From Planctomycetota bacterium (GTDB lineage: Bacteria; Planctomycetota; UBA11346), in contig JAHEDF010000019.1 in assembly GCA_024641365.1 (NCBI GenBank), positions 1 through 18,573 of the forward strand: a stretch of DNA of 18,573 bases, read 5' to 3'. How positions within the stretch are numbered: position 1 is the stretch's first letter; each line of letters begins with the position of its first letter. Under the pieces are notes generated by a model. That model was not told the origin of the DNA. It saw only the letters and a list, made by a program, of their open reading frames with translations, and ran no database searches. Both the position numbers and the translations under genes were made by a program. Below are positions 4,222-10,621 of this stretch, piece by piece.

Positions 4222-4577
4222 TGGTTGTCCTATGGGATGGGAGCGCGTTGATCACCAGATCGCAGCTGCTGAAGGGGTAGTGCTTTTACTCGCACAGCTA
4301 TGGGCTGTTGAAGCCTACACCCCCTGCTACTACATACTGGTGTGTGATATAGAAAGTATCTCCACTCAGGGTTTAAAAGTATTAAGAGACTTAATTCCTG
4401 CTGGCGTTAAGTCCAAAGAAAAACTTATTCTGCATATGTGCATAATCAGCTCCTAAGCACGCCTACGCTGAACATATCAATTAATAATACTAATTATCAA
4501 CAAGACTGCTTGTCTCATTGTTTTAATAAAGGTTGCCACAAACAATTATTATAATGACAGCTAAACAAAAATATTGT
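4222..4577. other. Gene-free leader region upstream of the haem protein
   Basis: No convincing gene was found here on either strand. A plus-strand open frame at 4130-4456 runs antisense into the haem-protein gene and lacks recognisable features. Reading towards the haem-protein gene, a weak sigma70-like pair TTGATA-N18-TATGTT occurs near 4470-4500, which would imply a transcript leader of over 200 bases. A 7-bp inverted repeat lies inside the region (entered separately). Confidence 0.5.
4388..4413. promoter_or_regulatory. Inverted repeat in the haem-protein leader
   Basis: GACTTAA (4388-4394) is exactly complementary to TTAAGTC (4407-4413) across a 12-base loop. No T-run follows on either strand, so it is not a canonical terminator. 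It could be an operator or a leader hairpin. It lies about 170 bases upstream of the haem-protein start. Confidence 0.35.
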
Positions 4578-4736
4578 CTAGCAGGTTGCTGAAAAAGTAA
4601 CCTGCGGAGTTTGAAGGGGACCGTCTGCCCCCCTTAGGGTAAGAGTCTGTTTTAATAATTGCGGAAAAATCGCGACTGCACGTCGCCCCGCAATTTATTA
4701 AAACCTAGCTGGTTGGTGTTTTCAGCAGCCTGCTAG
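4578..4736. mobile_element. MITE-like element with 18-bp terminal inverted repeats
   Basis: The left end CTAGCAGGTTGCTGAAAA (4578-4595) and the right end TTTTCAGCAGCCTGCTAG (4719-4736) are inverted copies matching at 17 of 18 positions. The outermost CTAG may include a short target duplication. Inside is a second inverted repeat, GTTTTAATAATTGCGG (4649-4664) against a 17-base arm at 4688-4704, with one base of indel. At its centre is a small GCGAC/GTCGC hairpin. At 159 bp it cannot encode a transposase, so it would move only in trans. The symmetry strongly suggests a non-autonomous insertion-sequence derivative. The parent family cannot be named from this window. It lies between the haem-protein leader and the 3' end of the mini binding-protein gene. 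Confidence 0.85.
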
Positions 4737-4811
4737 GAAAACCGCCTAGAAATAGATTATGGCCACATGAATCTACGCCACATTATTCCCTTAGGTCCGG
4801 TCATTTATTCC

Positions 4812-5225
4812 TTATCGAATAGGAATGACTTTTACACTCCCACTGACTTTTTCTGCATCCACATACCCAATAGCCCCAGGAGTTTTTTCAATTAGAGCCA
4901 CTAATTCTTCTTCGCTTTTTGTCGATAGAGGCATTGAGCCTCTCCCCGTAAAAACTAATTTTTTCCAACCTGACATAAATTGGTATTCATTTTTCCCCAA
5001 TTGAGTCATTAGTTTTTCATGGCTCTTACTGCCCGTTACGATCACAACAATTACCCGTGATCCATCTGGCCATGTTGTTTTCTTTCCCGTAAAGTAATAA
5101 TTAAACTCGCTCTCATTCATGTTGGCTATCTGGGTGCTCGGGTGCGCCACGATCGATTCGGCTGCACCCAGCGATAGGCACGTAATGAGCATGAACAGGA
5201 TTTTAGAAGATTTTTGAACTAACAT
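4812..5225 (-). CDS. Mini periplasmic phosphate-binding-like protein (PstS/PBP-like domain)
   Basis: The product is about 137 residues. The start at 5225 is preferred over the upstream in-frame ATG at 5252 because GGGAG lies 5 bases before it and because it directly opens a clean Sec signal peptide (LVQKSSKILFMLITCLSLGAAESIVA). The mature part reads IANMNESEFNYYFTGKKTTWPDGSR... and ends ...EELVALIEKTPGAIGYVD. This is the pattern of the second lobe of PstS-like phosphate-binding proteins (xxIFxGKxxxWxxG ... pgaIGYv). Full PstS proteins are over 270 residues, so this is a half-size stand-alone domain and may not bind ligand in the classical two-lobe way. It follows the porin gene by 35 bases on the same strand and is probably co-transcribed with it. 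A periplasmic location is inferred. The ligand is unknown; phosphate is only a family-level guess. Confidence 0.8.
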   Translation of the reverse strand: MLVQKSSKILFMLITCLSLGAAESIVAHPSTQIANMNESEFNYYFTGKKTTWPDGSRVIVVIVTGSKSHEKLMTQLGKNEYQFMSGWKKLVFTGRGSMPLSTKSEEELVALIEKTPGAIGYVDAEKVSGSVKVIPIR

Positions 5226-5260
5226 AATGGCTCCCGGGAAAATTGCTCGCATAGCAGGCC

Positions 5261-6601
5261 TCAGAAGTCGAAAGTGGTTTTAAGAGAGAAAATATTACCG
5301 TAGATATGTTGATTTGCAGATGTCGTTTCTTGTATACGTTCAAATTCGCCTTTAAGCAGAAAGTGATCCGTCACATCATAACGAACGGCAAATACGACTG
5401 ATTTGGTATATGATGTTGAGTTATCAAAGCGTGACTGAGACCAGTTGTAAGCACCAAACACATGAACATTACTCAAAAAACCTGGCATTGTTGTAAGTTG
5501 GTAATTTACTGATCCATAAAATTGATTTGCCCGTGCCGTTAGCATCCGAGTCGAGGCCGGTTGGTCGACGCTGGCTGGAGGAAATGGCCCTGGAAATCCT
5601 GTCCCAACAAAATCCAAGGCGCCCGTATCGGTTGTCGCTTTCCAGTATTGATTGGTATATTCGCCTGCAAAAGTAAAATCACCTTTTTGGTATTCAAAAC
5701 CCGTCATTATGTCTGTCCAATGATGAATATAGATATCTAACGATGTCCTCGCTGTCGTTCCCGATGCAGCACCAAGTCCCGGGTTAACTGGCATCGTCAC
5801 ATCTAACACGCCACCATTTAAGCGCATGTCATGCACATATAAATTTGACACTTTAAGTCGCAATCCATTAACAGGCGTGTTCCATGTCGCATAACCACCA
5901 CTCATTCGTTCAAGGGTAATTGAATCAGCTGAAGTCAGCTTCATGGTCAAAGTCCCAACGCCAGGGATAGTTGGCGCTGCTTGTGCTATACCGTTTTTAA
6001 ACGTATCAAAAATAGGCCCGTCACTTCCATCAATATTTTGCGTACCAACATAGCCCGATAAGTCGAGGCTACCAAAACTATCGGAGCGTAGTGAACTATT
6101 TATCTGCGCGCCATTGGCCGCCAAAAAGAAATCGCGAAATGATGCTGAATAGGTTGCACGCGGCAAAAATACTGGCGTACGAGTCATATCCAAATCGCGG
6201 AAGTCGTTATATAATCCATGTCCTGTTTTAAAGCGCCCTGCGACGAAATTCACGTCCAACCAATTTATGTCCGTTGGTACTTGGTATTGGCCAAATGCCC
6301 AGTCAATTTGCACTTCATCATTGCCATACTTGCCAATATCATAGGCAATAAATTGTGCGCCAATACGTAAGCGATCGACAGGTGTCGCGGTAATATTAAC
6401 CGCGAATTCATTTAATTCGAACGTTCCGCTATTCGTGTCTCGCCCCCATAGACCTGTGTTCTCGTATAATTGTCCATCGGTTCGCACATAACCTTGACTA
6501 GCAAAGCCGTGTAGTTGCAGGCCGAAATCATCGACGGCAAAAGCCGTCGATGAGCCGACGATTATAAGCAGTGATGGTAACAGATAAGATTGGCCAGACA
6601 T
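5261..6601 (-). CDS. Outer-membrane porin (beta-barrel)
   Basis: The preferred start at 6601 gives 446 residues. GAGG sits 5 bases upstream, and the signal peptide MSGQSYLLPSLLIIVGSSTAFA begins directly there; the longer open frame to 6682 runs through the promoter region. The mature protein starts VDDFGLQLHGFASQGYVRTDG. It continues as alternating polar/aromatic segments typical of porin strands (ELNEFAVNITATPVDRLRIGAQFIAYD, FTFAGEYTNQYWK) and ends in TTFDF, with the C-terminal Phe recognised by the BAM machinery. No specific porin subfamily or substrate can be assigned. The downstream mini phosphate-binding-like gene suggests a shared uptake role, possibly for an oxyanion (inference). A perfect hairpin lies inside the signal-peptide codons. 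Confidence 0.85.
   Translation of the reverse strand: MSGQSYLLPSLLIIVGSSTAFAVDDFGLQLHGFASQGYVRTDGQLYENTGLWGRDTNSGTFELNEFAVNITATPVDRLRIGAQFIAYDIGKYGNDEVQIDWAFGQYQVPTDINWLDVNFVAGRFKTGHGLYNDFRDLDMTRTPVFLPRATYSASFRDFFLAANGAQINSSLRSDSFGSLDLSGYVGTQNIDGSDGPIFDTFKNGIAQAAPTIPGVGTLTMKLTSADSITLERMSGGYATWNTPVNGLRLKVSNLYVHDMRLNGGVLDVTMPVNPGLGAASGTTARTSLDIYIHHWTDIMTGFEYQKGDFTFAGEYTNQYWKATTDTGALDFVGTGFPGPFPPASVDQPASTRMLTARANQFYGSVNYQLTTMPGFLSNVHVFGAYNWSQSRFDNSTSYTKSVVFAVRYDVTDHFLLKGEFERIQETTSANQHIYGNIFSLKTTFDF
6528..6553 (-). promoter_or_regulatory. Perfect 11-bp hairpin in the 5' coding region of the porin
   Basis: TCATCGACGGC (6528-6538) and GCCGTCGATGA (6543-6553) are exact inverted copies around AAAA. 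The pair covers porin codons 17-25, at the signal-peptide cleavage site. In the mRNA this would be a strong stem with a UUUU loop, which could affect translation or stability. It may be a chance effect of codon choice; no T-run follows, so it is not a terminator. Confidence 0.45.
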
Positions 6602-6632
6602 AGGGACCTCACATTCAATGTTGCTGTAACTG

Positions 6633-6666
6633 ATAAGGTGTACCTTATGAATTATTAATTTGTCAA
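6633..6666 (-). promoter_or_regulatory. Candidate porin promoter with overlapping palindromic operator
   Basis: On the minus strand a consensus -35 box TTGACA (complement of 6661-6666) is followed after 18 bases by a weak -10 (TACACC, complement of 6637-6642). A perfect palindrome ATAAGGT-GT-ACCTTAT (6633-6648) overlaps that -10 and lies 32-48 bases before the porin ATG, a typical position for a repressor or a MerR-like regulator. A second possible -10, TATAAT, is at 6685-6690 but has no good -35. The assignment is by position and consensus only. Confidence 0.45.
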
Positions 6667-6839
6667 TTAAATCTTTATACAACTATTATAAAATTAATCG
6701 GAGACAGTTATTTTTAACCCGTTAATTATAAAATTATAGCCGTCAGGAATGCGCCTTCTATTTCGCGATAACTGATAAAACGCGGTAAATAACGGACTTT
6801 TATTAGGGTAAATAAGTCTAATCTTGATGTTATTATAAA

Positions 6840-7109
6840 TACTGTCTTCGCATGACGACACCTGAATATAAGTACTTTATTATTAAGAGGTCAGTTTTAT
6901 TTAACTAAATTATTTAAAATTACTGTCTTCGCACTGCGACACCATAGGTGTCATATTGCAGAAAATTAATTACATTCGATCCACAATGCTATAAATACTG
7001 TCTTCGTGCTGCGACACCGCCTAACCGATACACGTATTTATAAGATATAAATTGAGATGATTCCGCTGAACAGGTATTGTCATAGAGGCTGTCCCCGCGC
7101 TGCGACATC
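6840..7109. repeat. Cluster of four 18-bp dyad repeats, TGTC-N10-GACA, upstream of the porin
   Basis: Four same-orientation copies of TGTCYYCGYRYKRCGACA have cores at 6843-6860, 6924-6941, 6999-7016 and 7090-7107. The outer TGTC and GACA are invariant. The first three copies are also preceded by TAC and followed by CC; the fourth is the most divergent. Start-to-start distances are 81, 75 and 91 bases, and the AT-rich DNA between copies shows no similarity. Copy 2 extends into a GACACC-ATA-GGTGTC hairpin (6938-6952). A partial reverse match, CGGAGACAGT (complement ACTGTCTCCG), occurs at 6699-6708. The cluster fills the 520 bases between the end of the ABC importer operon and the porin gene, with no gene inside. 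Multiple binding sites for a dimeric regulator are the likeliest reading; a CRISPR array is less likely because spacers are 50-70 bases and unequal. Confidence 0.75.
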
Positions 7110-7122
7110 ATACTTAATTGCT

Positions 7123-8094
7123 TTAACCAACATGGTCATTTGCTGGCCAGGACTGCCCCAATGTACGTGGACCGACGCTCCCTTGGCGCAAACAACCCAG
7201 CGCCACAAGCGCGACTATAAACGGCATCGCCTGAAAAAGTTGGTAGGGAACGACGTTGTTATATCCACGACTCTGCAAGACACTTTGTAGCGCATCCACT
7301 GCACCAAAACCGAGGCAAACCAATACCAACCAGCAAATGCGCCAACGTGCAAATATGACAAGCGCCAAAATAACAAAACCCATGCCGCCAGTCATTAACG
7401 CCGTAAAACCATGAACCCGCATGAGTGATAAATACGCACCCGCTAATCCAGCCAACATACCAGCGCATAGGATTATACCAAAACGCCAGCGTCTAACCGT
7501 GATCCCCAATTTTTGACAAGCATCAGGATTATCTCCTAATGCTGAAATAATAAGTCCCAAACGCGTTGAGCGCAGCAACCACCAACTGCTAAAAATAATA
7601 ACGAACACACCAAGCAGCAAACCATATTGATGAAAGACAAGCGGTCCGACAATTGGCAAATCAAATAAAATGCGATCTACGTCTGGTGATAAGCCCGGAA
7701 TAATACCTCGCGTAAAACCAACACCGTTAGCTAATTCTGCATATCCATGCGATTGCAATAATAACCACGCCGTACCACTACCGCCCACGGCAATTAAATT
7801 TATCGCCATACCCGTCACTATTTGATCCGTTCTCATATACACAGTCGCCCAAGCAAAAATGGCTGCCAAAATTCCTGCCACGCTGATGGCGGTCAGCAGT
7901 CCAATATATGCATATCCACTTAATGCCGCTCCAGCAAAACCACCGATGCAACCAGCTAGCAATAATCCTTCAATTCCAACATTTAACGTACCACTGCGTT
8001 GTGCACACAGTTCTCCTATGCCAGCAATAATAAATGGAACCGCTGCCGTGACTGCCTGCGCTGCTAATAAAACCACCAACGTATCGTTGATCAT
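7123..8094 (-). CDS. BMP-type ABC importer, inner-membrane permease 2 (NupQ/YufQ-like)
   Basis: The product is 323 residues when started at the ATG at 8094, which overlaps the upstream permease stop as ATGA. The open frame extends to 8124, but those extra codons lie inside permease 1. It is very hydrophobic, with about eight to nine membrane segments. It carries the hallmark GELCAQRSGTLNVGIEGLLL motif (residues about 27-46) of branched-chain/BMP-type permeases (BPD_transp_2 fold) that form the nucleoside importers of the B. subtilis NupOPQ type. It would pair with permease 1 to form the translocation path, powered by the double ATPase. It is the last gene of the operon, ending 14 bases before the fourth dyad repeat. 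No clear terminator follows. Confidence 0.9.
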   Translation of the reverse strand: MINDTLVVLLAAQAVTAAVPFIIAGIGELCAQRSGTLNVGIEGLLLAGCIGGFAGAALSGYAYIGLLTAISVAGILAAIFAWATVYMRTDQIVTGMAINLIAVGGSGTAWLLLQSHGYAELANGVGFTRGIIPGLSPDVDRILFDLPIVGPLVFHQYGLLLGVFVIIFSSWWLLRSTRLGLIISALGDNPDACQKLGITVRRWRFGIILCAGMLAGLAGAYLSLMRVHGFTALMTGGMGFVILALVIFARWRICWLVLVCLGFGAVDALQSVLQSRGYNNVVPYQLFQAMPFIVALVALGCLRQGSVGPRTLGQSWPANDHVG

Positions 8095-9143: not shown

Positions 9144-10621
9144 TTGCCGACTCCTGCCATTAATTGTGCGATATCAGCGCGCGAAGCATCGGGCCACTTA
9201 CTGGGCAGCAAGCAACCGCGCTGCATGACTAATAGGCGATCAGCAATAGCCATTATTTCATCAATATCATTGTGCACCAATAATACGGCAGCACCATTAT
9301 TTCGTGCTTGCACTAAATTCCGTAATACTGATTGGGCAGCAGCAATATCTAAGCCGCGAGTCGGATTAACAGCAATGATGTACGATGGATTACCATAAAA
9401 TTCTCGGCCAATTACTGCTTTTTGTTGGTTGCCTCCTGATAAAGTGGCAATTGGCACTTCTGCGCCCGGTGCACGAATATCACATTCTACCATTACATTC
9501 TGAACATGACGCCGCCATGCTGATAACGTTAAAAAACCATGATGGCTGAATGCCGGCATACCATAATGTTTTAGCATCACATTCTGCTCAACCGACATCG
9601 GCAAAACCAACGCATCGCGATGGCGATCATCAGGAATATAGGCGCATGTGTGCGGATCGAAAGGAGAGTGCATTACTCCGTTTGTTATGGCTACCGCACC
9701 AATTAATACATTGATTAATGTCGCTTGCCCATTTCCTTCAACGCCAGCAATCCCAACAATTTCCCCTTTTCGCACTGATAAATTAATATCGCGCAATAAA
9801 TATTCCTTTTTACTATTTTGCACACTTACATTTTCTAAGCTGATCACTTGCATAGCAGCAGCAGTTGCGGGCTGCGGTGTATTTTGAACCTGATCTACAG
9901 CCTCACCAACCATATGCGTTGCCAAAGTGTCTATCGGCGTTTGTGCGTCTCCGTGATAAGTAATTTTACCACGCCGCAGTACCGTTACGACATCACAGAC
10001 CTGGGTGATTTCTGGCAATTTATGGCTAATAAATAAAACCGCGACGCCATCTGCTGCCAAACTTTTTATTGCTACCATCAGTTCGTCACGTTCGCTATCA
10101 GTTAATACCGCTGTTGGTTCATCTAAAATTAATGTGCGCGATTCATTCGCTGATTGTTCTAGTGCAATAAGGGCTTTAATAATTTCAACGCGTTGCTGCT
10201 GACCAACAGCTAATGTTTCGACAATGGCAGCTGGATCAATGTTCCAATGCAAGCGTTCGGTACATGCACGAATGCGTTGCGCCCATTGTTGACGATCACA
10301 CCGACCCAGCGTCGACTGCAGTGCCAAAATAATATTATCAACTACAGATAAAGTCGGTATTAAAGCAAAATGTTGATGCACCATGCCGATGCCGCACTGT
10401 TGTGCGTGTGCTGGTGAGTGCACAGCGGTGATTTTATTATTTATCGAAATGGTTCCCTGATCTGGAGCCAGCAGACCAAAAACAATATGCATTAATGTTG
10501 ATTTTCCGGCGCCATTTTCTCCGACTAATCCATGCACTTGCCCTCTCGCACAGGTCAACGACACATCAGTCAATGCCGCAACCGCTCCAAATTGTTTACT
10601 GATATGTGAGAGAGTCAGCAT
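9140..10621 (-). CDS. BMP-type ABC importer, double ATP-binding protein (NupO/YufO-like)
   Basis: The 493-residue protein holds two ABC domains. Domain 1 is catalytically complete: Walker A GENGAGKST (34-42), Q-loop Gln83, signature LAVGQQQR (137-144), Walker B LILDEPTA (164-171) with Glu168, and switch His200. Domain 2 has a degenerate Walker A, GVEGNGQATL (293-302), without the lysine. It keeps a good signature LSGGNQQK (394-401), and the Walker B region reads IIAVNPTRGLD with no catalytic Glu. This asymmetry is usual in the nucleoside/sugar (CUT2-like) ATPases, so it is not evidence of decay. It couples ATP hydrolysis in the cytoplasm to the two permeases that follow. It starts 14 bases after the small-protein gene and has no strong Shine-Dalgarno sequence. 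Confidence 0.93.
   Translation of the reverse strand: MLTLSHISKQFGAVAALTDVSLTCARGQVHGLVGENGAGKSTLMHIVFGLLAPDQGTISINNKITAVHSPAHAQQCGIGMVHQHFALIPTLSVVDNIILALQSTLGRCDRQQWAQRIRACTERLHWNIDPAAIVETLAVGQQQRVEIIKALIALEQSANESRTLILDEPTAVLTDSERDELMVAIKSLAADGVAVLFISHKLPEITQVCDVVTVLRRGKITYHGDAQTPIDTLATHMVGEAVDQVQNTPQPATAAAMQVISLENVSVQNSKKEYLLRDINLSVRKGEIVGIAGVEGNGQATLINVLIGAVAITNGVMHSPFDPHTCAYIPDDRHRDALVLPMSVEQNVMLKHYGMPAFSHHGFLTLSAWRRHVQNVMVECDIRAPGAEVPIATLSGGNQQKAVIGREFYGNPSYIIAVNPTRGLDIAAAQSVLRNLVQARNNGAAVLLVHNDIDEIMAIADRLLVMQRGCLLPSKWPDASRADIAQLMAGVGK

Follow-up and report, generated by a model that had tools for sequence, protein, structure and literature searches.

What might use four short, oriented repeats lying in one intergenic gap upstream of a porin-like gene? 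The window (the whole stretch of DNA analysed, 18,573 bases) holds exactly four matches to TGTC-N10-GACA, all on the + strand and none elsewhere. Their start-to-start spacing is 81, 75 and 91 bases, as the initial annotation had reported for four copies in the same orientation. The dyads span 265 bp (6843-7107), and all fall in a single 521-bp gap (6602-7122) between a permease gene and the porin-like gene, at 242-506 bp from the porin start codon on its upstream side. The GC content of this gap is 34%, compared with 44.8% for the window.

In 200 dinucleotide shuffles of the whole window, the mean number of dyads was 0.21 and the largest two. When the 521-bp gap was copied 20,000 times under an order-1 Markov model, 19,931 copies had zero dyads, 69 had one and none had more. 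The four dyads are far above both levels, and thus the array is not a product of chance.

Anatomy of the array and its surroundings

The features discussed below are as follows; MGR_bin356 (genome G001, locus L001) is the nearest relative among those compared.

7123-8094, − strand: last permease gene of a Bmp-type ABC operon, at the edge of the gap (gene calls and Pfam)
5261-6601, − strand: porin-like gene, the presumed target of the array (gene calls and homologues)
4812-5252, − strand: PBP-like gene of 146 aa beside the porin gene (PF12849 below its cut-off, 20.3 versus 27 bits)
6661-6666, − strand: TTGACA, possible -35 element of a porin promoter (also at a similar distance from the ATG in G001)
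6833-6840, + strand: AT-rich left part of copy 1 (like stretches at 6914-6921 and 6989-6996)
6841-6862, + strand: unit copy 1, 22-nt core, dyad 6843-6860 (motif scan and alignment, as for copies 2-4)
6922-6943, + strand: unit copy 2, 22-nt core, dyad 6924-6941
6997-7018, + strand: unit copy 3, 22-nt core, dyad 6999-7016
7088-7109, + strand: unit copy 4, the most diverged, 22-nt core, dyad 7090-7107

The conserved unit consists of an AT-rich left part joined to ACTGTCTTCGCACTGCGACACC. The initial annotation had described an 18-bp dyad. Its TGTC and GACA ends are indeed invariant, but the conserved unit is longer, with copies 1-3 alike over about 30 nt including the AT-rich stretch on the left, and it is less symmetric. 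Across the 22-nt core, 19, 20 and 17 positions are identical among copies 1-3, while copy 4 matches the other copies at 14, 17 and 17. The earlier wording of three nearly identical copies is therefore rather strong for the pair 1-3. Copies 1 and 3 have 17 exact bases in common, starting at 6834 and 6990 and crossing the left border of the core. Part of the agreement on the left side may be due to AT-richness as such.

The letters invariant in all four copies are C TGTC.. CG..... CGACA. C, and variation is seen in the centre and at the two positions that follow TGTC. Since these invariant letters are asymmetric about the dyad, each copy is directional, and all four point the same way. When the copies were aligned on the dyad, at least three of the four agreed in 95% of the 22 core columns and in 90% of the 10 columns immediately before them. 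Over 40 columns the share was 47.5% on the left side and 22.5% on the right; the agreement expected from gap composition is 25%, and more where a stretch contains only A and T. The stretches between the cores measure 59, 53 and 69 nt. Ten pairwise tests among the spacers (left parts trimmed) and the two flanks revealed no similarity (p-values 0.146-0.968), in keeping with the earlier description of otherwise unrelated AT-rich DNA. The units have thus stayed alike while the intervening DNA has not.

The porin-like protein matched no Pfam family. Its name rests on relatives: 4 of the 100 homologues listed carry PF13609 or PF07396, both porin families. One homologue, P0002, is encoded on a 269-kb contig and has 65% identity to the porin. 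Three of these 100 are named as Planctomycetes bacteria. The distance from TTGACA to the porin ATG is 65 bases in the window and 66 in G001 (hand count), and in both the letters GTACAC or GTGTACC follow TTGACA. The hexamer is also present upstream of the porin gene in G003; G002 and G004 have no exact copy.

Two further elements were observed near the porin operon. A palindrome, ATAAGGTGTACCTTAT, is located at 6633-6648, just downstream of the possible -35 element and near the porin start; it could be an operator, but the gap is not short of palindromes of this size (two found versus 0.43 expected). Between the PBP-like gene and a gene for a heme-binding protein is a MITE-like stretch (4577-4738) with inverted ends CTAGCAGGTTGCTGAAAA and TTTTCAGCAGCCTGCTAG and a strong single-stranded DNA fold (z -7.1). 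Its end was detected in 0 of 131 loci, and the strict form in no viral contig.

Occurrence in relatives, plasmids and viruses

Relatives were sought by scanning genome contigs. The permease query yielded none, and the porin alignment yielded 41 loci, of which L001-L008 were the most useful. The gene order in G001 is Bmp, orf92, ATPase, permA, permB, a reversed narK-like gene, porin, PBP-like and heme-binding protein. Identity between the window and G001 is 67% for permB, 53% for the porin and 78% for the heme-binding protein. In G001 a full narK gene lies between permB and the porin gene, whereas the corresponding gap of the window is without it. A narK-like MFS remnant is present in the window at 902-1375; it covers the C-terminal third (residues 288-433 of the G001 protein), lacks the front and is likely a pseudogene left by rearrangement. 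A decayed narK within the gap was rejected: tblastn of the G001 protein gave no match there, and elsewhere it hit only 938-1372 and, at chance level (E 3.1), 10448-10537.

The dyad was absent upstream of the porin gene in every relative examined. No TGTC-N6 to 14-GACA occurs in G001-G004 within the 461-481 bp upstream of and just into the porin gene. TGTC-N10-GACA is likewise missing from all 41 porin loci, for which up to 700 bp before the porin match were scanned. The full 700 bp were available for 39 of these loci and less for L005 and L032; in distant loci the match begins inside the gene. Any 4-base dyad repeated three times upstream was found at one of the 41 loci (L013), an A/T case. 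The letters that do recur between the window and G001 sit at most 66 bp from the ATG (by eye), so the recurring part adjoins the gene and not the array. The initial annotation had named a lack of conservation at orthologous loci as evidence against its proposal. This lack is what we found, yet it is weak evidence because the nearest porin among the compared genomes is just 53% identical.

Wider searches gave a similar picture. A triple-dyad array with gaps of 50-80 was absent from all 392 planctomycete genomes, and the control likewise gave 0. With one mismatch, CTGTCTTCGNNNTGCGACACC occurred once each in three of the 392, versus two for the reversed control. The 22-letter form with exactly three mismatches was found in 12 of 23 genomes of the class of G001, at 16 places versus 13 in the control, and a looser pattern in six genomes gave 16 matches versus 16. 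Near-matches to the unit thus occur in relatives at about background frequency. Single dyads were present in L002 (10324) and L010 (8666), away from the porin gene. The near-matches in G002 (L045, L049) were rejected as a second family, as only a few flank letters are common to them (by eye). TGTCYTTGAACTGCGACA occurs in G002, G005 and G006 with alike flanks in all three and probably represents one conserved gene.

A similarity search with the gap against the 23 genomes of the class of G001 gave a best E-value of 0.3; against plasmids (20 records) and phages (36 records), the best among the matches listed was 0.04. Viral contigs contained neither the exact 20-letter form nor the paired strict form. 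Triple dyads were found in seven viral stretches, with repeats unlike those of the window. The two closest to the window unit in letters are L111 and L108. L111, a 184.8-kb contig from a viral collection, carries seven units at 12-288 (five of TGTCCCAATTCTGCGACA and two variants), 33-46 bp apart. L108 carries five units of TGTCGCGGATTCGCGACA at 1696-1926, 48-69 bp apart, within one long reading frame that has a helicase-like frame downstream of it (as read from the translations); this five-unit repeat is possibly an origin-type array. Among the papers listed for the motif letters, none appeared relevant. Taken as it stands, the array is real, well delimited and apparently lineage-restricted.

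Candidate users of the array

The reading that we favour, and regard as evenly poised between right and wrong, is a lineage-restricted cluster of sites bound by a putative regulator, at a distance of 242-506 bp from the porin/PBP-like operon on its upstream side. Selection on the contacts of a dimer would be expected to leave invariant arms, a free centre and spacers without mutual similarity, which makes a DNA-binding protein the best-supported user. The four sites would be bound in a fixed orientation by one sequence-specific protein, probably dimeric. The array would most likely be the upstream regulatory region of the porin/PBP-like operon, a natural target because it is downstream and runs in the same direction, and action at this distance would involve looping or joint occupancy of several sites. 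We infer all three elements: protein binding, the role of that protein as a regulator, and the porin operon as its target. The operator proposed in the initial annotation is accordingly favoured by the invariant arms, variable centre, unrelated spacers and position upstream of the co-directional pair, while an effect on that pair is conjectural.

The evidence on this operator reading points both ways. A repeated site with invariant contacts does lie upstream of a gene, and the confinement of all four window dyads to one gap upstream of a co-directional operon counts for it. Against it count the lack of any dyad upstream of the porin gene in relatives (distant ones, however) and the absence of helical phasing in the 81/75/91 spacing. 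Nor was any gene of the window recognised as that of a regulator. Regulator-binding sites turn over fast. Given this and the distance of the relatives, the missing conservation lowers confidence but does not amount to a refutation. Bacterial operons with grouped regulator-binding sites on their upstream side are a general kind of arrangement. The array resembles such groups in its several short oriented sites, invariant arms and co-directional operon, and differs in starting 242 bp from the gene, in its irregular spacing and in being unconserved in relatives.

Readings at the RNA level were rejected. Eight single-strand folds were weak on both strands (-2.2 to -5.2 kcal/mol, z -1.96 to +1.58), which disfavours an RNA hairpin or riboswitch. 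No Rfam family matched at the gathering score, and a lax search of 6560-7180 gave one chance-level match (SscA RNA, E 0.67, 20.7 versus 60 bits). There was no terminator-like site in 6550-7200. Weak hairpins and the lack of an Rfam family or terminator count for a protein acting on DNA. Recent tandem duplication of 75-91-bp units was rejected since the spacers are unrelated. Overall, the features fit double-stranded DNA read by a protein better than an RNA hairpin, a REP element, a recent tandem duplication or a CRISPR array.

Two known kinds of site were also considered and rejected. The PHO box, the site of PhoB, consists of two CTGTCAT-like direct repeats 11 bp apart. The array unit starts with CTGTC, and a porin/PBP-like pair would fit phosphate uptake; however, the second repeat is absent in copy 1, where its CTG is missing, and reads CTGCGAC in copies 2-4, and the invariant GACA arm is foreign to the PHO box. 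For a sigma-54 enhancer (UAS), the best minus-strand site between the array and the porin gene scored 16 of 25 on a home-made scale, giving no convincing promoter.

Alternatively, the four units could belong to an interspersed repeat family specific to this lineage, either REP-like or of some other small intergenic type, which we think rather unlikely. The likeness of copies 1-3 over about 30 nt, the unrelated spacers, as for separate insertions, and the lack of such an array in the 392 planctomycete genomes, which points to lineage restriction, would all suit it. On the other hand, the window has no further dyad outside the gap, and the hairpins are weak with 4-bp arms. REPs as defined in PMC3733652 form stems of 5-13 bp, bear GTAG or CGTC as a tag and pair mainly as head-to-head dimers. 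The array shares with them short intergenic repeats, dyad symmetry and occasional clustering, but its arms and folds fall short of a stem of at least 5 bp with a tag at one end: by eye, GTAG is in no copy and CGTC in copy 1 only, and all copies are head-to-tail. The REP-like option of the initial annotation is consequently disfavoured. Clusters are frequent for GTAG repeats (PMC3733652), and clustering alone is therefore no argument against a repeat family.

A relic end of a Tn7/Mu-type transposon, that is, directional transposase-binding sites left after loss of the element, is in our view improbable. The repeats are directional, in one orientation and variably spaced, and short repeats in clusters are likewise what is used to locate Tn7-like ends (PMC10293859), which the array resembles in being a cluster of direct, spaced short repeats. 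The changed gene order, with narK between permB and the porin gene in G001 and only its C-terminal fragment in the window, also agrees with such an event. The array differs from these ends in having neither a second end nor a transposase in the window and flanks syntenic with G001. No transposase was found among the recognised window genes, and the 18.6-kb window has one repeat cluster, although a second end could lie outside. Moreover, the gap is bordered on both sides by the genes found around the equivalent place in G001, and the 392 planctomycete genomes contained no triple array. The relic array listed as a third option in the initial annotation retains some likelihood.

Equally a long shot is that the directional unit, some 31 bp in length, serves a new lineage-restricted DNA-binding system, either a multi-site far-upstream regulator or the transposase of a new element, and not an ordinary operator of a known family.

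It is very doubtful that the units are promoter modules in tandem, directed towards the porin gene and used by an alternative sigma factor: each unit does join a GC-richer part to an AT-rich TATA-like part, but sigma-70-like sites are near the shuffle level (4 versus a mean of 2.8, sd 1.7), copy 4 has retained little of the AT-rich part, and the invariant GACA arm would go unexplained. A decayed CRISPR array is scarcely credible despite its repeats of about 30 nt, unique spacers and diverged terminal copy, as the cores are only 14-20 of 22 alike and the stretches between them measure 59, 53 and 69 nt, a divergence and unevenness that exclude an ordinary CRISPR array with its near-identical repeats and near-constant spacers; the 10 window proteins scanned yielded no match to a defence model (the ATPase, GlnE, RibE and GldG-like proteins were outside the scan).

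Possible implications for planctomycete regulation

The array is a well-defined but ordinary-looking lead. To our knowledge, uncultured planctomycetes have few mapped regulatory sites. With its four sites and clear invariant letters, the array is a probe that could name a regulator and its targets; if the unit is mobile, it would be the mark of a hitherto undescribed element.
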